The position numbers and the translations under genes are program-made. Source: Psilocybe azurescens (Eukaryota; Basidiomycota; Agaricomycetes; Agaricales; Agrocybaceae). From it: a stretch of DNA of 17,846 nucleotides. The stretch spans positions 1 to 17,846 of the forward strand of contig JAJIRX010000003.1 of NCBI GenBank assembly GCA_023853785.1. The letters are read 5' to 3'. Every line of letters starts with the position of its first letter. The first letter of the stretch is position 1. The notes under the pieces were generated by a model. It worked only from the letters and a program-made list of their open reading frames with translations. It was not told the origin of the DNA and made no database searches. This document shows positions 2,717 through 15,425 of the stretch, piece after piece.

Positions 2717-4675
2717 ATGCCTACCCTCAGCACGACCATCGAGGATAGCTCTCCTGTAATCGTCTACTCTGGAAGCGGAGGAGGAGACTGGGTGGCGGGG
2801 AATTCTTCAAATGATCCACTAGCTTCCCTGTGCGTGTTTCTTGACCGTTGGCATTGTGTCCACCTCTAAAGGACGTTGCCTTGCGATGTCTACAGATACC
2901 TCGCAAGGGAGCTTCACACTCACCTCCAAAAACAGCGCCAATGCCTCGTTCTCGTTCTATGGGACTGGTGTTCAGATCTTTGGTGCTAAACGATCCAACC
3001 ATGGACCCTATCAGGTCACCATAGACTCGACTACGTACGCCCAAGTCAATGGGCAGGGGCGGACATCTTCCAGACATCCTTGTTCTCTGCCGTGGCTCTG
3101 ACCAATGGATTCCACAAAGTCACGATCACCAACTTTGGCACTACGTTCTTGGACATTGACTTCGTGCGTGATTGACTGACTATCGGAAACGTTCGTTCTC
3201 GTTTGATGGTCGACTTCTGTAGATAACATGGCAGACACCTGTAGGGTCTTCAGACGAACAATTGCTATCTTCTACTGTACAGGACTCAGAGGCACCCTTC
3301 AAATATACCCCAGAATCAGCATGGAATGCGAGTCCACCCAATGTTGGAATGTTCTCGGGAGGTTCTGGGCAGTACGTGGAGTCTTATTTTTGGAAATAGT
3401 ATGATATCAACATGATCTTTTTATATAGCACTACAACGACAGCCGGATCATCTGTAGAATTCACATTCACGGTCAGTGTTTACCTATCATTCTGATGATA
3501 ACGCTCTAATAGCCTCTCTTAGGGCAAGTGGCTGTACCAACTTCATGTTACTCTTGCACATATTGATATCGATATCAGGTTCTGCCGTGGCAGTCTTTGG
3601 CCCAGTAGGCCCCAGTGGTGCTCAATTTTCAGTCCAACTAGATAATGATAGCCCCGCGAATTATTCTACAAATAAACCATTCTACAGACCGCAGCAGTTA
3701 CTCTTCCAAGCCGGAAATCTTGGGAACGGGCAACATACTGTCAAAATGATACAGCAGTCTTGGGACAACTCTGCCTTGTCTCTCTCGGTTGACTATGCAC
3801 AGGTTTTCACCACTCACTCTCTACAAAACAGGTGAGTAATGATACGTATCTTGGTATCGGGCTCAACCTATCTGACCCAACTACAAGTGCTGCCGCAGGG
3901 TCAGTTATTCATTATATGTACGTCGCCTTTCGGCAAATTACTAACCTGATCCGTAAGAAGATTGTCCACGGGCGCTATCACAGGCATCGCCATTGGCACC
4001 GTCGCTTTATTTGCTGCGATCATTGCTGCCCTAATTATATTCCTACCTTCGAAACATATCTCAAACTCTTCCGTTTGAAAGGAAGGTCTGTAGAAAAAGG
4101 TTCGATCACGGGACCGTTCCAGTACCAACGAGTCAGTGGAGATATATCTGCTGGCCTTCCACCCCAGCCAGCGACATACGGACGTCATAACCATAGTGCA
4201 CAACCATCGCAGTCAATCTCAAATTTCACTCCACCATCTACAGGGTTCCCTCTACATCTGGTGGGACATACGCACCAAGTACAGACACGTCGTCACAGGG
4301 CCCGAATGTATGTTCCTTCAAAACTTTGATGTGTTTTGCTGCAGCACATTCTGATCACATCGACTTCTCCTAGACCCAAGTAGTTTCCATTCCGTTCACC
4401 ACGGATGGGAAATATCGACCTGACTTGCCAAACACACCTCAGCTTTTGCCACCACCAGGGGTGCGCAGGGATCCAAGTCCGTCGTCAAGTAGAAGTCGGC
4501 TTCAGTCGTCGTTGCCTCCTGGAGCCGAACAACCAAGCGTGATTACTGATGATGAGTTGGGAAGGATTATGGAGCAGTCGAGCCGGGGTCATATCGTAGG
4601 CCATTGCCCGCACCATTGCGTCGACCTACAGAAGCAAGTTTGGCTTGGACAGAGCCGCCACAGTATCAACGGTGA
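2717..4675 (+). CDS. Single-pass membrane protein with two lectin-like ectodomains, copy 1 of a tandem pair
   Basis: Exons: 2717-2829, 2896-3163, 3223-3371, 3429-3471, 3523 (one nucleotide), 3579-3831, 3888-3899, 3961-4183, 4244-4307, 4374-4675. The protein has two galactose-binding-like beta-sandwich domains (domain 1 with GAKRSNHGPY.VTID; domain 2 with FGPVGPSGAQ and a GNLGNGQHTV block). A Ser/Ala stalk, a TM helix around residues 285-308 (GIAIGTVALFAAIIAALIIF) and a Pro/Ser-rich cytoplasmic tail ending EPPQYQR follow. No cleavable signal peptide is evident. This architecture recurs in agaricomycete genomes, where members are usually called transmembrane or hypothetical proteins; ligand and role are unknown. 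Frame problems: an apparent extra C near 2899, missing G in the G4 run at 3056-3059, one unresolved break between about 4058 and 4110, and a missing G near 4577. An alternative acceptor at about 2915 would avoid the first break but delete five residues. The start is set by the MPTLSTTIEDSSP opening shared with copy 2. Confidence 0.75.
3523..3523 (+). other. Candidate single-nucleotide exon (G) in paralog copy 1
   Basis: The upstream exon ends ACG in phase 0 at 3471 and the downstream exon begins GT TCT GCC at 3579, so one base must be supplied to make Gly (FTGSAVAVFG). Within the 107-nt gap, an acceptor CTCTCTTAG ends at 3522, one G follows, and GCAAGT, the consensus of GC-AG introns, starts at 3524. 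This splits the gap into introns of 51 and 55 nt, both normal here. The paralog has the same layout at 6303. Confidence 0.6.
3888..3899 (+). other. 12-nt exon followed by an intron with a NAGNAG acceptor
   Basis: The exon TGCTGCCGCAGG encodes the Ala-rich stalk between introns 3832-3887 (56 nt) and 3900-3960 (61 nt). The second intron has a perfect TACTAAC branch site near 3940 and ends in AAGAAG (3955-3960), where use of either AG keeps the frame and adds or omits one Arg. The matching exon in the other paralog is 66 nt. Confidence 0.6.
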
Positions 4676-5470: not shown

Positions 5471-7203
5471 ATGCCATCGTTCACGACGTTACTTGAAGAT
5501 ACCTCTCCCATACTTGTCTACTCGCAGGCGAACTGGCAAGCTGGGACTTCCAATGGAGATGATCTATTTGACAAGTCAGTTCTATTGTTACTTATTCGAG
5601 TAAAGATTTACGTTGCGACATGTGTACTTACTGCCGGCGGTTTCTCTTGCCAGATACTCAGATGCTACATTTACGGCCTCGCAGACTAAAGGTGCAACCA
5701 TGTTTTTCGGATTCAATGGCACATCCGTCGCGATCTATGGCGCTAAACGAGGCAACCACGGGCAATACAACGTCACGATCGACAATTTCAACACTATCAG
5801 CGCCAGTGGTGCTTCAGATACGGAACAATTCCAACAGCTATTGTATACCTCGGGGACTTAGAGTCAGGCTTTCACAATATGACTATCCTTAATCTCGATG
5901 GTAACTTCTTAGATGTGGACTATGTGAGTGACTGTTTTCCTTTTCAATTGAATACTTTTCCGAACTGTTTGTCGAATTGTCAGGTAACATTCAAGACGAA
6001 TGTTGGCCAAGATGGCGAAGATATCATCATCAATACATTTCAAAATGCGCATCCTTCATTCTCATACACACCCGCTTCTTCCTGGAAGACTCCAAGTCAG
6101 GTTGAGAGATTTATGGGTGGGTCGGGCCAGTGCGTAGAGTTTATTATCAGAACAAAGACCATAGTGACGAACTTACACTGTCAGTGCAACGACAGACTCT
6201 GCCACAATGACATTTATGTTCCATGTAAGTCCTATTCTGTTACGTGAATTGCAACTACTGAGCATTGTTCCATTCTTTCTTTCTTTCTTGGTATACTTCT
6301 AGGGTAAGGTTACTAGTGCCCCTAGAGCATTAGCAAGGTATTTACCTGTATGCTTTCTCTTTTAGGAGATGCAATTGCCCTGTACGGCCCAGTTGGTCCT
6401 TCTGCTGCGTCTTATACCGTGCAAGTCGACAGTGGAAATCCAATGCTCTACGCTGCAAACAGGGTGGTTTACCGCTCACAGCAAGTTTTATTCTTCGCAG
6501 GCAATCTCGGTGCGGGTGTGCACTCCTTCAGGTCCAAACCCCTTCTGCTTCCGGGGAATTGGCCATAGACTACGCCACTGTCTACACTACACGTTCATTG
6601 GGAGGAAGGTGAGCATCCTTTGACCTTTGCTTGGGTCGGCTTTGATTGAAAAACCAGCCTACTATCCGATGCTTCGGTTCTCAGCAGCATTAATAACACC
6701 GATACCTCAAACAATAACACAAGGTAGGTTCGAATTTTATTCCCTCGTCTATATTACTCATTTTCATTTCTAGTACTGTCTATCGAACACCAAAATCTGT
6801 GATTGCTGGCCTGGCCGCCGTCTCTTCAATTGCTTTGTTTATCTTGCTTGGCTGCGTCTTCCTTTCCGTACGCCTACGCCGCGTAAGAAGATCTATGAAC
6901 GAATTACTTAGAGTCGGTGGCCTGGATCACGAATTTGATACTACCGTACAGCCATTCACGGTGGAATACCACCCTGTCGGAAGTACCCCAAGCCTCCAGA
7001 GCACTAATAGACCAAGCAGCGGAATGCACTTAGTCGGGTCCACAGACAATGGCGGTTTCACCACTGTGGCGCTTACTGCTCCTGGGAGAGCTGTGATTGG
7101 GGCCACGAAATCCTCCAATGGTCATAGAATAAACCCTAGCATTGCCAGCACGTCCGCGTCCAGCTTGGTAGCTCCACCGCGGTACCAGCTCGAACCTCGG
7201 TGA
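5471..7203 (+). CDS. Single-pass membrane protein with two lectin-like ectodomains, copy 2 of a tandem pair
   Basis: Exons: 5471-5574, 5654-5923, 5984-6129, 6185-6224, 6303 (one nucleotide), 6366-6608, 6658-6723, 6774-7203, giving 433 residues once two missing bases are allowed for. Domain 1 (about 36-125) carries GAKRGNHGQYNVTID and FLDVDYVTF. Domain 2 (about 180-285) carries ALYGPVGPSAASYTV and a GNLGAGVHS block. An Asn/Thr/Ser stalk, a TM helix at about 300-322 (IAGLAAVSSIALFILLGCVF), a basic stop-transfer RLRRVRR and a 105-residue Ser/Thr-rich tail follow. It aligns with copy 1 over the whole ectodomain and shares intron positions there, but its tail is one exon and unrelated in sequence. 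The expected topology is N-terminus outside; ligand and function are unknown. Frame is lost at TT 5858-5859 and TT 6527-6528, each mended by one T. AATAAA at 7477-7482 is a possible poly(A) signal. Confidence 0.8.
6303..6303 (+). other. Candidate single-nucleotide exon (G) in paralog copy 2
   Basis: The upstream exon ends CAT in phase 0 at 6224 and the downstream exon starts GA GAT GCA at 6366, so one base is needed for Gly (FHGDAIALYG). The 141-nt gap contains a (TTTC)n pyrimidine tract and the acceptor ACTTCTAG ending at 6302, then G, then the donor GTAAGG at 6304. Splitting there gives introns of 78 and 62 nt. An unsplit 141-nt intron would be the longest in the window and out of frame. 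Confidence 0.6.
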
Positions 7204-8000: not shown

Positions 8001-9341
8001 TTAAGGTTGCAATTCTTCCATCTGGATCATATCAAACTTGCTGAGTCTTCTACGCCCAGCATCACACCTGCGCAGGTACTCTTTTGCCCTCTCTTTGAAC
8101 AATTCGCAGTCGTCGTACAGGTCAGCTGGGAGCTTATCTTTCCGTTGCTCCCATGGCTTTATGTCGACGGACTCGCAGCGGTCCAGACATACCATGATCA
8201 GGCCAAAGCTGTATGCGTCTGCCAGCAATGGGTCCTGGCATTCTCCTCGGAGGATTTCAGGTGCTGAAAATGGCCGTGTCCCGGGGTGAATTTGCTCATA
8301 CTTCACCGTCGGCAGTTTCGGGGTCGATGCAGACTGTTTGCGGGCGATGTACGGGAAGGGATCCACAGGCTCGTCGTCAGGAGACTTGAAGACAGAGTCT
8401 GCTGAGACAGAACGGCCGAAGTCAAGAAGCTTAATGGTATTTGTCCGTTTTGTAACTTGAATGTTCAGTAACGATAGGTCCCCATGACTCAGTCTGTACG
8501 AATGCAAGTGAGTAAGACCGTCTAACAGCTGGTTGTGATAATCGATTTTTTGCTTCGTCGTCAACTTTGGACGCTCTATGATGACATCGTATAACGTTCG
8601 ACCGTCGATGTACGCCAAAACCATCCCAACATTCTCTAACGATCCCAGGAACGCACATATGTTTCTATGCCGTGCCACTGTTGTGTACACTCGCAACTCT
8701 GCAAGGAATTGCACGGTGACATCAGAGGCGTTAGATTGCATTTCCCCGTTGATCTCGAGCTGGATGACATCCGGCTTCTTGACTACACATCGAAACAGCT
8801 CTGAAGCAGACCCATGAGCAAAGGGCTGCAAACTGGCGGTAGGATTAGGAGGAGCCGAGTAAGCTGTTGGTGTTGGGAACGAGAATATGGACGTGGGATG
8901 GCGTGGAGGATTGTAGATGGGGGAAGGAGGTGGGAATCGCTTCGCTTGTAATCGGTGCCGTGGTGATGGAGATTGTGGTGGCGTTGTTGATGTTCATCTA
9001 CGCCATGATTATACTGATCATAAACAGGCGGCTTTTCAACGGCTGTCTCCTCCGATGACGAGAACGAGTTCACTGAATGCGAAGGTTGTGTTTCTTCTTC
9101 TTCGTCCATTTCCACTGCATCGGAGGCAGTGACGTGAGATCCAATCGAATCAGACTGTATATTATAACGCACCCATCCACCAATTCTTCTTCGACGTCAA
9201 TGTTACCCGCTTTACGTGCATCGCCATCGGTGGTCTAGGGACTGTGTGTTGTACTGTCGGCGTCCGAGATTCAGTCGGTGTGTCGGGCGCTTGGGCGCTG
9301 CTGAAGCCTCTTGTGAATGCAGGACGCGAATTTTGGTGCAT
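8001..9341 (-). CDS. Protein kinase-like protein with low-complexity N-terminus; beta3 Lys not evident
   Basis: Proposed exons 9341-9173, 9114-9002 and 8939-8001 give 406 residues. The last exon is an uninterrupted 313-codon frame. The N-terminal ~130 residues are low complexity: an acidic block MDEEEET, then Pro-rich repeats. The kinase domain follows: degenerate glycine loop AHGSASELF (about 135-143), alpha-C FLAELRVY with Glu175 and a HRNICAFLG strand, catalytic loop HGDLSLLN (Asp248), LDFGRS (Asp267) and SAPEIL (320-322). HGD replaces HRD, as is common in agaricomycete kinases. The usual beta3 Lys is not seen: the segment reads VIQLEI, with KK five to six residues before the Gln. The C-lobe is short after the APE motif. 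The first intron (58 nt) is firm. The second (62 nt, GTAGAT donor, GCGAAG acceptor) is chosen because it links the two open frames; a GTTTAT donor 24 nt upstream is equally in frame. The start at 9341 has A at -3. Confidence 0.75.
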
Positions 9342-11507
9342 TATGGTAGATGAAAACCACAAGTCTGAAAATTCAGTGACGAAAGTTAAGAAGAAAGGTT
9401 CGGAATTGCCACAGTATGCTTTCGGCCTTGGCAATTAGGAGGGCGTCCGAATGGGGTATGTCAGTGATCGGTTCTCAACACAGGGCCTTTATTGTTATGA
9501 TTGCTTTTCACATATGTAAGATATTTACTGCAGTTTAAGTGTCATATACCTATATATAATACACACAAATGTCCAACGAACGAAAGGAAGGTTCTGGCAA
9601 AGATTATCGAAATCACTTGCCCACCCTTTGGTTTTCACAAGATTATCTCGAAGTCAAGAACCCGCGCCGCGTGTGCAATGTCTAGAGAAGTCTAGTGCCA
9701 TCGGACAGGGCCGAGGTTGATAAATGACTCTGACTGATTATGAAGAGATTTAGCAATGTTATTTAGTTATTTAGCTTGATATGTACCCCAGTCACTTCTT
9801 TCCAGCCTTTAGTATTGAACAAGATTCAGAAAACCTTAAGCCCCAGAGAGGTTGCAGAGCTGATCTATAACTTTCATATTCTTTCGGTGAATGTCAACGA
9901 GATCCGAACAGGTAGCAGCAAATTCGTTGTTTTCCATTTGCCCACCCACGTTGACGTCATTAAACACAATTTCAATTTCAAGAGTCCCCTTCTTTCTTGG
10001 ACACAGGATAACCTCTGTAAGCATTGTATCCACAGCACCAGCCGTAGGGGTCATTAGCGCCTGCATAAGTACTATTCAGAACTTGTAGCTCTTGAAAGAT
10101 CGGTGGATCCTACGTAGATTAGTGGTGCTATATTTCAGGGCTTATGCTGGGGTAGAAACCTGAAAACTAGGCAAGAGGATGAGAAGCCGAGAAGCCACGG
10201 TGCAGGGATTCTTTGCATGAGCAATAACACTCTTAGCTGCAGAACAACCATCAAAGGTGTAAAACTGAATTATTGTTGTTCCAAAACCCCCATCAAAAGA
10301 TTGACAGAGGTAAGACTATCATCTATGAAGATAAACATCCGTTCTTTCCCCAGATTATTAGTAGAACGTATTTCTTGCTGGCCTTAATGAAGCGACCTTC
10401 GGAACAGACGTCAACTTTCTGTATTGTTTTCAGTATTATGTACCATGTCGCCAAATGAACAAACTTACTTTCATTGCTTCAGCGTGTAACTTAATGCTAC
10501 ATACTGTGAGTACATAGCCCTTTGTGTTCTGGAGAAAGCCCTGATCGACATTGAAGAAGAAATGAAGCACTGATGTCAGCTTGTTAACTTTTGGCAGCGG
10601 GGACATACGGCGAATCACACACTTTCGTGGTAGGACAATTTCCATTTGTTGAGACCAGGATTTTACTACAGTGTGAGCATGTGAGATTAACATCTACTAT
10701 CGTGGGGCTATAACACTGTGTGAGGAAACAGGTCCAACGGCCTGTGAGCGTAAATTTTGGATATTAATTAAACGTCCGCTCTTTTCATGGCAATGGCTGC
10801 GGCTATCCATTTCATCTCTTGTTTTAGAGACACCATGCAGGTAGATAAAGACAGAGATTATCGGGGAAAACATTTTCACTCTCAATTTATTCTCGGAGGC
10901 TGTCCATAACGTGGTTATGAGCGTCTAAAATTTGACTATATAAGACAAGCAATCTCGGGCAACTCGGTCAAACCCAGTCCATTCTACTTAATCTGTTATA
11001 CTTTGGCCATGTAGCAGTATTAATAGTATTATTGGTCGCTGACTGCGATCACTCTTCGTAGTGGCTGATGCGTCTTGATCGCTGTCCATTGAAGACCCAG
11101 TTGTTTGTCGTCTTGTGAGATAACCTACGATTACCACTAGTATGTCATAATTTAACCATCAATAAATATACGCTCCATGCATCATGGAAACCTTACTTTA
11201 GATACCAGTGACATCTGACGTTGTTGGACATTTCCCATGAGCAAGTTAGCCATGTAATCCGACATTTATACGCAAGGAGGCTTGCCTCTGGCGCACACCA
11301 GGTGACCCAGCCATGGCGCTCGTTTTCCCATCCGACTGACCCGAATGCATAACATATAACTCTATATTTACTCTCCCAAGTTTTCGGATCGCTCGCGTTC
11401 TCTCAACCGGCTTCAGTTTGCAAGCATCGCTCAATTGCAGTGTCTTTTCTAAGTGTTTAACGACGCTGAGCCTTTCACTTCGCTTCTTTTTCTACCAATT
11501 AGAAAAT
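9342..11507. other. Gene-poor region with a possible unrecognised or decaying minus-strand gene
   Basis: TATATATAA at 9550-9558 could be the kinase TATA box, about 210 nt upstream of its start. On the minus strand two stretches look protein-like: 10066-9836 (reads through GTLEIEIVFNDVNVGG) and 10693-10464. The second ends at a GTAAGT donor at about 10463, and a 50-nt intron would carry it into KVDVCSEGRFIKASKKY. I do not recognise either, could not join them in frame, and cannot tell a relic from chance. A TATATAAG lies at 10936-10943. Nothing else was identified. Confidence 0.35.
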
Positions 11508-11573
11508 ATGCCATCGTTCATCACGTCAATTGAGGATACCAACGCGAGCTCCACCACCATACTCATTTGTTAG
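11508..11573 (+). pseudogene. Relic of exon 1 of a third copy of the lectin-like membrane-protein family
   Basis: The reading frame opens MPSFITSIEDTN and stops at TAG 11571-11573 after 21 codons. The first bases match copy 2 closely (identical over ATGCCATCGTTCA, then GAGGATACC versus GAAGATACC), and both have an AATT shortly before the ATG. A TATATTTA lies at 11363-11370, like the one before copy 2. The conserved SP.(I/L)VYS segment is lost and no further exons could be found downstream, so only the first exon survives. It could be a truncated duplication or the remnant of a deleted third tandem copy. Confidence 0.6.
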
Positions 11574-12792: not shown

Positions 12793-15425
12793 CTAGTATA
12801 GTCCAGATGCTAACAAGACGACGAGAAGGCAGCAGATGGCATGCATCCACCAGAAGTCGAGCGTAGCATTACGCCAGCCGAATCTTTAGTGTCCTTACTC
12901 GAGCCGCCATCGGCCGAGGACGACGAGCTTTGCACGATGTTGGTGGACGGCAGGTCAGCCACAGCGAGCTTTGCTGTTTCCCGAGCGCGCCGGACCCCAG
13001 CATGACCTGCAATCCCACCGAGGGGACACCGTTGACGACGACGAAGATGAACGCGGGCCCCGGTGCGATGATCGCTGGGTTGGGTGGAAGCTGCGATACA
13101 TGCAGCACGCCCGTGTTGTTCGCCGCAAATCCGGTGTATGTCGCCGCTAGCTCGACGTACCGCTGACCCATATTCTACAAGCAGAAATCAAGATACATTG
13201 ATCAACACACGTCAGGTTTGATAGGACATGGGCTAGTATGAGCGTGACAGGAGACTTACCATGGCATGGGTCGAGAACCCAGTCCGGATGATCACGACTT
13301 TGGTCTTGTTGAGATTCTGCACGTCTCCAAACAGATCGTCCGAGTCCAACACGACATCAAAGAAGGACCCCCATATGAATACTGAGCAAGGATTCCCTTG
13401 GGTTGCGGGCGCCTTTTATTGTAATAGGGTGGATAGAATATCTCCGTGCGGTACTCAGTTGGAAACTCGACATCCGGCCCAACGGTATAATCGGGGTTGG
13501 GATTCGACCCAGAAACAAGCACAGACCCTGATTAACAATAACAAAATGCAAGTTCAGTTCTAAAAATAGCCTCGCACGATCTAGCGCAGAGCATTTACTT
13601 ACCGTCAGGCAGCAGTGTGGCTGAAGAGTGGTACAGCCGAGGCACGGTACTCGATTGCAATCCATCTGAAGACCATCTGCTACCGTCCGCAGCGGCTGGA
13701 TCGTAAATGACAGGCGTTAGGACGGGGCTGGTTGCGTATGAATGACCGATCGCCCAAGAGTCATTGCCATATCCAGCCGTTCCTAGATACCCAGCAATTC
13801 GTGAGTCAAAACCGTGATAGGAGTGTATGGATGGGCAGGGGAAGGATTCAATTTACCTAAACGTGCACCGTTAAGATTTAGCACCTTGCCATCAGGAAGG
13901 GCGATGAAGTTCGCCATTGAGCGGGCGTCGGGTAGGTCGTCATCTTGTACGTAGCTTCCTGAGACGTCTGGAGTAAGCTTGACGCAAGAGGTCGAGGCTG
14001 GATATGTTGGAACAATGAATGTCTTTTGGGTCCACCTAACATGACAAGGGAAAACGGAAAGGAGATAGAAATGAAGTAATGAGATAAAAATAGACGATAG
14101 GAGTACATATCACGTACTGCTTGGGCTGTACATTCGAGCCTCCACAGAAGAGGATGGTTGCGGTGTAATTGTTCGCAGGGGTCAGCGGGAGCATGATGTT
14201 CCCTGCACTTGCAGGATACACACGTACGGCATCGGGAACATCATCAAGTGGCGTCTCGACGTTTGCCGTGTAGTCCAGTGTTACGGTGGCCCAGTTGGAC
14301 TGGATCAGGAGGTTGCCAGAGGGTAGTAGCCAGGTGAGGGGAAGAGATTCGCAGGAAGGGTATTCTGGAGGATAGGAGAAAGTATTGGGTCCCCCTTGGA
14401 GGAAAGAATTCGTATGTTGGGTTATCCTGCGACGCATCGTTAACGTATCCTCCATTCCTACATCCACCTAACTGTGGTTTAGGTCTATATTAGACATGAA
14501 TTATGGAGTCAACCTGTGGAGTTCCTCACAATTATGGCGGTACCATCCTCAAGTGTTTCACTAGTTAAGAGCGGGTATATTGAGCCGCGAACTTGGTCGA
14601 AAATAGACAACTTACACCGTAGGGTACCAGCGCTGATCAATTTGGTTGGGCGAGAGTGTCCAGTCACAACTTCCGTCATCGCAAGGTGTTAACAATCTTC
14701 ATATTGTTGATCAGTCTTCTGCGTTCATCGATAGGAACACGTTTAGATTTATACCTTATCCTATGACCAATTGCTTCAGCTACACGTGTAAGCGTCATTC
14801 TAAAATTAAACGGCTCACGATTGTCTTCCGTCTGGATCGTCGTATGCACCTCCGCCAGTCTGACTCGCCGCAGGTTGTCCACCATATGTAATTGCTTGGT
14901 TTCCTCCAACGTTCAACCATGTTCCATTGCCGAGGACATTTCCGCCCTGACGAGAATCTATTAGTATCGGCATTGTGTGACCCAGCCAAGGACTCACAGC
15001 ACAGAAAGTGTTGGTAAGGGCGTCCATGGGCCTCTGGTTATTGGACGAAAGGGACCATTCTGTATTGAATAATTAAACGTGATCACTGTATAGCGCGTCC
15101 TCGTTTACATACCTGACGCCCAAGCCGGGTGCCCATTTATTTGAGTGGGGTTTCCTTCGACTTTGTCTACGAAGAAGACCTTGTCCGGTGTGGCTAGGAA
15201 AACCTGTGGCGAGACTGTTAGCGAGATGTGCCAGGTAGAAGTATGCTTCATGCCCACCTGCTGTGCGCTGACAAGACTATTTCCAATGAGCTCGAACCCT
15301 CCAACAGTTCCCGTGCGCGTAGGTTGACCCGGAGCAGGCAGAGTAGTTGCAGATTGACCCAATACTCCGACGGCTGCAGAGAGCGAGGACACTAAGAGCA
15401 ACGAGGAGAGAGGGAGGTGCCCCAT
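12793..15425 (-). CDS. Copper radical oxidase, glyoxal oxidase-like (AA5_1), secreted
   Basis: Twelve exons: 15425-15258, 15203-15113, 15059-14998, 14946-14819, 14760-14755, 14696-14616, 14560-14530, 14471-14118, 14035-13857, 13782-13603, 13527-13260, 13174-12793; 644 residues after allowing five missing bases. A signal peptide (LSSLLLVSSLSAAVGVLG) is followed by the Glyoxal_oxid_N propeller and the DUF1929-type C-terminal domain. Active-site residues of the family are all present: Cys106 (TFCAGGNVLGNG) and Tyr176 (QRWYPT) for the Cys-Tyr radical cofactor, Tyr418-His419 (RLYHSSATLLPDG) and His515 (GFSTHAM) for copper. Spacing 176 to 418 equals the Tyr135-Tyr377 spacing of Phanerochaete glyoxal oxidase. 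The enzyme should oxidise aldehydes or alcohols to acids and release H2O2, feeding extracellular peroxidases. A hydrophobic C-terminus (WWMHAICCLLVVLLASGLY) suggests membrane or GPI anchoring. Frame is lost at 14391-14395, 14338-14341, 13359-13361, 12970-12972 and near 12872, always by one missing base. Confidence 0.88.
14338..14395 (-). other. Pair of one-base frame breaks in homopolymers of the oxidase
   Basis: After EFFPP the frame breaks at a G5 run (14391-14395); adding one G gives GDPILSPILQNTLPANLF. It breaks again at a C4 run (14338-14341); adding one C gives LTWLLPSGNL. Both restored segments are family-like, and no intron signal lies between them. Confidence 0.7.
14755..14760 (-). 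other. 6-nt microexon in the oxidase gene
   Basis: Minus-strand GATAAG lies between CATAG (acceptor) and GTATAA (donor). With exons 14946-14819 and 14696-14616 it completes Ser-Ile-Arg before LLTPCDDGSCDW, where family members have an (A/S)IR motif. The flanking introns 14818-14761 and 14754-14697 are each exactly 58 nt. Skipping it keeps frame but removes Ile-Arg; an unspliced 122-nt intron would be atypically long. Confidence 0.75.

Follow-up and report, generated by a model that had tools for sequence, protein, structure and literature searches.

A Putative One-Nucleotide Exon in a Gene Family of Psilocybe azurescens Predicted to Encode Cell-Surface Proteins

Can a single base serve as a coding exon in a mushroom gene, and how would such an exon come about? 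The question is raised by a G at position 6303 of a stretch of the Psilocybe azurescens genome (70.4 Mb, 937 contigs); this stretch, contig C3, was analyzed over its whole length of 17,846 bases and is referred to here as the window. The window holds two copies of a gene, and in copy 2 the G lies in the context TTCCAT/GTAAGT..TTCTAG/G/GTAAGG..TTTTAG/GAGATG, where slashes mark splice sites. A first-pass annotation had proposed that this base is an exon by itself, and the coordinates, intron lengths (78 + 62 nt) and motifs that it gave for copy 2 are all exact; the stretch left unsplit is 141 nt and out of frame, and a TTTC run stands ahead of the intron 1 acceptor, both as claimed. Judging from the sequence, we consider it very probable that the G at 6303 forms an exon of one nucleotide. 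The prediction is that it is spliced between introns of 78 nt and 62 nt and so opens a glycine codon of the second ectodomain.

The site and the protein it would encode

5471, plus strand: start of copy 2
5471-5574, 5654-5923 and 5984-6129, plus strand: copy 2 exons 1-3, with ordinary introns (5575-5653 and 5924-5983) between them
6130-6184, plus strand: copy 2 intron after exon 3
6185-6224, plus strand: copy 2 exon preceding the site, 40 nt, ending ..ATTDSATMTFMFH, placed by spliced alignment
6225-6302, plus strand: copy 2 intron 1, phase 0, 78 nt, GTAAGT..TTCTAG
6303, plus strand: copy 2 predicted one-nucleotide exon G, which would open the glycine codon G/GA
6304-6365, plus strand: copy 2 intron 2, phase 1, 62 nt, GTAAGG..TTTTAG
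6366-6608, plus strand: copy 2 exon beyond the site, GA GAT GCA.., read as (G)DAIALYGPVGPS..
6799-7203, plus strand: copy 2 open frame (ORF) with a predicted transmembrane segment, a helix in the P0001 model, and a cytoplasmic tail
3472-3522, plus strand: copy 1 intron 1, 51 nt
3523, plus strand: copy 1 predicted one-nucleotide exon G
3524-3578, plus strand: copy 1 intron 2, 55 nt, with the GC donor GCAAGT
11504-11540, plus strand: probable remnant of a third copy, a start-codon region with 84% identity over 37 nt to the one in copy 2

Copy 1 does have the matching arrangement that had been described for it, with a GC second donor where copy 2 has GT. A second haplotype of the window lies on contig C434 (98.1% over 8.08 kb); there, intron 1 of copy 2 is 74 nt long, the missing 4 nt falling in the TTTC tract, and AG/G/GTAAGG is identical. 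The frame of copy 2 suffers one-base breaks in C3, near 5850 (5845-5860) and 6524 (6520-6530), neither of which is found in C434, and C3 could represent either a haplotig of lower quality or an allele in decay. The frame break in copy 1, near residue 85 (about 3040-3070, in a G-rich run), is present in both haplotypes; copy 1 is either a pseudogene or carries a sequencing error common to the two. Elsewhere in the window, on the minus strand, are pieces of a galactose/glyoxal oxidase-like gene (12869-14467; Pfam PF09118 and PF07250), a protein kinase-like gene (8001-8831) and an MFS transporter-like gene (1004-1648).

In the predicted structure of the relative P0001 (mean pLDDT 74.4; 235 of 457 residues at 90 or above, mostly in the ectodomain), the site glycine, G186, lies between strands 179-185 and 188-196 of the second beta-sandwich, and a helix at 285-318 would fit a membrane anchor. 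G186 is invariant in 30 aligned relatives, the rows having been picked for being clean. Foldseek matches are mostly to carbohydrate-active enzymes and binding modules, with low whole-chain TM-scores. When five proteins were scanned with the Pfam CE2_N profile (PF17996, CE2_N-like carbohydrate-binding jelly roll), P0005 scored 30.3 against a cut-off of 27.9, and P0001, P0015, P0025 and the copy 2 fragment fell below it. The modeled fold would have a broad likeness to carbohydrate-binding beta-sandwiches, no closer than that. We predict that the family consists of cell-surface proteins, and we would guess that these bind glycans. Loss of the base at the site would shift the reading frame, and with it the second domain, the membrane anchor and the tail would go, which is probably why the base is kept.

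Close copies, splice parses and gene models of other species

Fourteen close copies were found in the genome. Thirteen, at nine loci, carry AG/G/G[TC]AA, and the fourteenth (C28:67k) is intronless at this place. The nine loci are copies 1 and 2 (two haplotypes each), C28_187, C28_184, C28_176, C325_9, C28_32, C28_75/C29_7 and C28_73/C29_5, the last two of which are probably haplotype pairs. Three features expected of a single-nucleotide exon are found here: an AG acceptor and a GT or GC donor flank one base in all 13 twin-intron copies; the base is required for the reading frame in 12, the exception being C28_184, in which an upstream base has been lost and the one-base exon is no longer needed for the frame; and there are relatives in which the codon is uninterrupted (C28:67k) or singly interrupted (eight paralogs). 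The twin introns of the 13 copies measure 51-78 nt (intron 1) and 55-64 nt (intron 2), and the stretch between exons, at 107-141 nt, is roughly as long as two of the single introns found in relatives (51-65 nt). The second donor has a G at +5 in 12 of the 13 copies, C28_184 (GTAATT) failing.

The intervening sequences of seven of the nine loci were aligned, C28_184 and C28_32 being omitted for their disturbed frames. They are 33-53% identical, save for two close pairs (75% and 82%), and only 10 of 159 columns are invariant among the seven aligned loci: seven of these columns make up AGGG-AAG and two are the final AG. The exon G is invariant in 7/7. Outside AG/G/G[TC]AA, the intron sequences of the close copies have mostly lost similarity. 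When each of the 13 stretches was subjected to 2000 dinucleotide shuffles, an admissible NAG/N/G[TC]RNG site, with both introns at least 45 nt long, arose in 0.25-1.85% of cases (in copy 2, 1.5%); requiring G as the single base brings this down to 0-0.3%. Such an admissible site is present in 12 of the 13 real stretches, C28_184 again failing.

These observations bear on the objection that sequencing or assembly error has dropped a base from the exon end, which is then followed by one ordinary intron. C3 does have one-base indels relative to C434, and frame breaks in the modeled part are absent in only four of the 13 copies (copy 2 on C434, C28_187, C28_75 and C29_7), with at least one in the other nine, so several copies may be decayed or carry assembly errors. 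As an explanation of the site, we nevertheless regard error as scarcely credible, since the twin-intron signals recur in two haplotypes and at nine loci, the same phase gap is found at eight of the nine (C28_184 having lost it), the inter-exon stretch has the doubled length noted above, and gene models of other genera indicate this gap too. Members of the family are found along C28 at 32, 67, 73, 75, 176, 184 and 187 kb, and frame breaks near residues 21 and 166 are common to C28_176 and C28_32, and also to C325_9; the family on C28 suggests duplication and decay.

How the site is best parsed was explored in two ways. Among parses enumerated with GT/GC-AG introns of at least 45 nt, the motif F-x-G-x-A is obtainable through a single G in 12 of the 13 copies, C28_184 being the exception, and in copy 2 the motif F-x-G-D-A is read only by a parse that retains G 6303. 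Frame-compatible alternatives with one intron number 0-18 per copy; there are many in single copies, they differ between copies, and C28_75 and C29_7 have none. We also used spliced alignment with any exon length allowed, taking as template the C28:67k protein, in which the glycine is an uninterrupted GGC codon. The one-base exon was chosen in 12, 11 and 11 of the 13 copies at intron costs of -14, -18 and -22, respectively; the exceptions were C28_184, with its lost upstream base, and C28_73, for which it was chosen at -14 only. The margins over the best parse lacking the acceptor are modest, 5.5-18 at a cost of -18 and 0.5-18 at -22 (0.5 being that of C325). This refined alignment adds weight to the donor +5 G and to acceptor position -3, and its outcome depends on scoring the +5 G; a cruder alignment with weak splice-site scores placed a one-base exon in just 3 of the 13 copies. 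Branch-site words ([CT]TNA[CT]) occur in many introns, not all; there are none in copy 2 intron 1 or in intron 2 of C28_75, C29_7, C28_73 and C29_5, and because they are missing from some introns they were not used as evidence.

Proteins of other species provide a separate view of the site. Three protein searches returned 24, 85 and 25 matches, comprising 128 protein ids; the site strings of 118 of these were read and sorted by hand. Ten that lack the site or the domain were omitted (P0021-P0024, P0104, P0105, P0107, P0124, P0127 and P0128); three of these (P0021, P0023 and P0105) have F-x-G at a comparable place and would raise the clean models to 29/85. Of 82 genome-based models, 26 are clean and 56 are aberrant here, 27 taking the form F-x-V and 29 some other; 15 of the 29 "other" models also change or lose adjacent residues and hence are not site-specific. 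The neighboring D-x-D-[YF] junction looks normal in 74 of the same 82. The F-x-V form is what one would get by translating, as Val, the GT of a donor that directly follows the F-x codon, and it occurs in Agaricineae, Marasmiineae and Tricholomatineae, plus one Fomitiporia (Hymenochaetales). The last, P0106 of Fomitiporia mediterranea (FQVCDGV), carries this signature beyond the Agaricales, and may reflect a one-base exon that predates the order or an unrelated annotation error. In the 26 clean foreign models, a one-base exon and a single intron are indistinguishable.

Several aberrant models can be read more closely. P0066 (Lentinula aciculospora; FQ/ETEFRCMVP) and P0069 (Mycena leptocephala; FQ/EMESRYTGL) run out of frame after FQ, and when they are back-translated with one G placed in front, both can read GDG[VI]..YGP (the GDGVSLYGP type), which random stretches did in 0/3000 cases; from their sequences, these models likely joined the two exons minus the base. 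In P0018 (Flammula), 39 codons (117 nt) are retained; just one AG/G/G[TC]RNG position within them leaves an intron 1 in the range 45-75 nt, and that intron would be 55 nt long. F-x-G-K is the continuation in both P0085 (Psilocybe cubensis) and P0050 (Lentinula raphanica), as though the second donor GG[TC]AAG had been translated. Transcript-like ORFs of relatives (jgi, lgn and ena; contigs of 1.1-3.8 kb), none of them from this genome, have the right length in 36/36 cases, with Gly in 35 and Ala in 1, a cleanness that is partly selected, since these ORFs were found for being open. They appear to be cDNA, to judge from long open frames on short contigs.

One might instead suppose a single intron with a shifted donor (GTNA/GT or another weak site), so that Val-Arg or Val-Ser replaces the glycine and there is no one-base exon. 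Parses of this kind exist in several of the P. azurescens copies, and annotators have made similar choices, as in FQVRDAI (Galerina P0007), FQVRDAV (Mycena P0026 and P0033) and FSVSAAV (Galerina P0080). The transcript-like ORFs, however, lack the extra residue in 36/36 cases; no one-intron parse exists in C28_75 or C29_7, and those of the other copies vary from one to the next; the conserved AGGG[TC]AAG would be left without a role; and what P0066 and P0069 read is consistent with exons missing just one G. We therefore think a shifted donor very unlikely and retain the one-base exon as the preferred reading. The first-pass annotation had held this exon to be old and retained in the family, a view that draws support from the second haplotype, the nine loci and the models of other Agaricales. 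The misread gene models suggest that many other mushrooms have it as well.

Origin of the twin introns

Eight distant paralogs (two on C188, one on C750, three on C28 at 120-125 kb, and one each on C174 and C477) suggest what may have preceded the twin introns; the weak matches C631 (no readable site), C325:10128 (one orientation inspected), C500 and C427 were left out of this set. In 8/8 with a readable intron, one phase-1 intron of 51-65 nt interrupts the same glycine codon, and AGGG[TC] occurs inside none of these eight single introns. Intron 2 of copy 2 matches the single intron in place. Since a single phase-1 intron is the state of all eight, intron 1 is probably the later arrival, having entered one base upstream of the old donor. 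Two findings had been named in advance as counting against the one-base exon: relatives with an encoded G followed by one 50-70-nt intron, together with reads that correct the locus. The first does occur, in these same eight paralogs; as to the second, the two haplotypes agree and give no such correction. The single-intron relatives, being more distant, are best read as the ancestral state. This state, the intron-free relative and intron 1 as probably the newer intron all go beyond the first-pass annotation.

We suspect, on the evidence of the paralogs, that the ancestor would have had one phase-1 intron inside the glycine codon (G/GN), that a phase-0 intron would then have been gained exactly one base upstream of the existing donor, and that the leftover base would thus have become an exon. 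In C28:67k both introns would later have been lost, likely through cDNA, and if this copy is indeed cDNA-derived it would itself record correct splicing. In the tree, C28:67k falls inside the Agaricales group: its placement outside a 42-row group is rejected (p-AU 0.004), and its placement outside a 17-row subgroup is not (p-AU 0.205). As the groups were named after the tree had been seen and the branch of C28:67k is long, secondary loss is likely only.

A different history would leave the twin structure real, with one base lost at the exon end and the loss rescued by a cryptic AGGGT within a long intron, as Nelson and Syed have proposed for CYP621A (PMC12940212). It fits the phase-0 first donor, and it sits well with the comparison of intron 1 with intron 2 in seven copies, where pairwise z values of -0.7 to 2.7 give no clear support for duplication of intron 2 as the source of intron 1. 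It also needs a long ancestral intron, whereas the single introns of all eight distant paralogs are only as long as intron 2. We consider this history unlikely, if worth keeping in mind, and favor the gain of intron 1.

Splicing and comparison with known systems

The footprint of U1 on a donor spans positions -3 to +6. On the second donor it would overlap the AG that closes intron 1, which makes simultaneous recognition across one base implausible; removal of the two introns would then be stepwise, and we think this likely. Each intron has a full donor and a full acceptor. Once intron 1 is removed, donor 2 matches U1 better in C28_187, C28_176, C325 and C28_32, whereas the match stays as it was in copies 1 and 2, C28_75, C29_7, C28_73, C29_5 and C28_184; given these mixed results, no splicing order is favored overall.

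Two successive removals could also leave no base in the mRNA, as in a stwintron or at a zero-length ratchet point. Complete introns do lie adjacent in series here, and stwintrons have been described in several Ascomycota. With no base kept, however, the frame would be lost in the intact copies, and the second donor, GTAAGG, is already whole while intron 1 is still in place, whereas a stwintron by definition has an interrupted splice signal. We regard such an arrangement as highly improbable at this site. In terms of class membership, no outer splice signal is interrupted by an inner intron, the signals of both being complete, and the AG/GT of recursive splicing at a zero-length exon is replaced by AG/G/GT, with one base between that is needed for the frame. 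What the stwintrons (PMC9024468, PMC6616335 and PMC5639578) share with the site is two consecutive excisions at one place in fungal nuclear genes; they differ in that the outer intron's signal is interrupted, and here both signal sets are complete and one exon base is left.

One-base exons are already known from plant APC11 and VPS55, Fusarium CYP621A and Candida snoRNA hosts (PMC4674806, PMC8831610, PMC12940212 and PMC5033589). CYP621A (PMC12940212) offers a close likeness: its exon is coding, has the form AG/G/GT, completes a conserved glycine codon and was missed by annotation; the unsplit stretch, 139 nt in F. graminearum, has roughly the length of two normal introns, and an intron-free relative served as a length marker. 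There, the base is the middle one of the codon, in one orthologous gene of one ascomycete genus, and RNA reads are described. Here, in contrast, it would be the first base of the codon, the family is multicopy and basidiomycete, both GT and GC second donors occur, the exon is predicted from genomic sequence, and single-intron paralogs suggest the ancestor. The plant exons (PMC4674806 and PMC8831610) resemble this one in extending across a wide taxonomic distance and in being absent from reference annotations, and APC11 has intron-free relatives, ascribed there to reverse-transcription loss; the genes are unrelated, and the tests there used mutated constructs (APC11) and RT-PCR. In the Candida snoRNA polycistron (PMC5033589) the transcript is non-coding and, unlike here, no reading frame is involved. 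PMC12940212 presents its case as the first one-nucleotide exon of a fungal gene; the single-base exons of Candida snoRNA hosts date to 2016 (PMC5033589). By titles and the beginnings of abstracts in the open-licence PMC literature, we found no one-base exon from a basidiomycete or from this family. The kind is known; the breadth and visible origin are unusual among one-base exons.

Taken as a whole, the account we propose is that an intron landed one base upstream of a donor and made the smallest exon, that this exon was kept through duplication and speciation in three Agaricales suborders, that it calls for obligatory two-step splicing, and that it is misread in most of the models examined; we would put the chances of the entire account at about even. 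With 56 aberrant models among the 82 classified, it would seem that the family is misannotated at a single position in many genomes. Few one-base exons turned up in the literature, and this one is found at nine loci in one genome and, by inference, in many genera. The apparent states before (one intron), after (two introns and one base) and upon loss (no intron) stand side by side, and they would offer a natural series for how the spliceosome treats an exon too small for both of its sites to be bound, and for how such exons arise.
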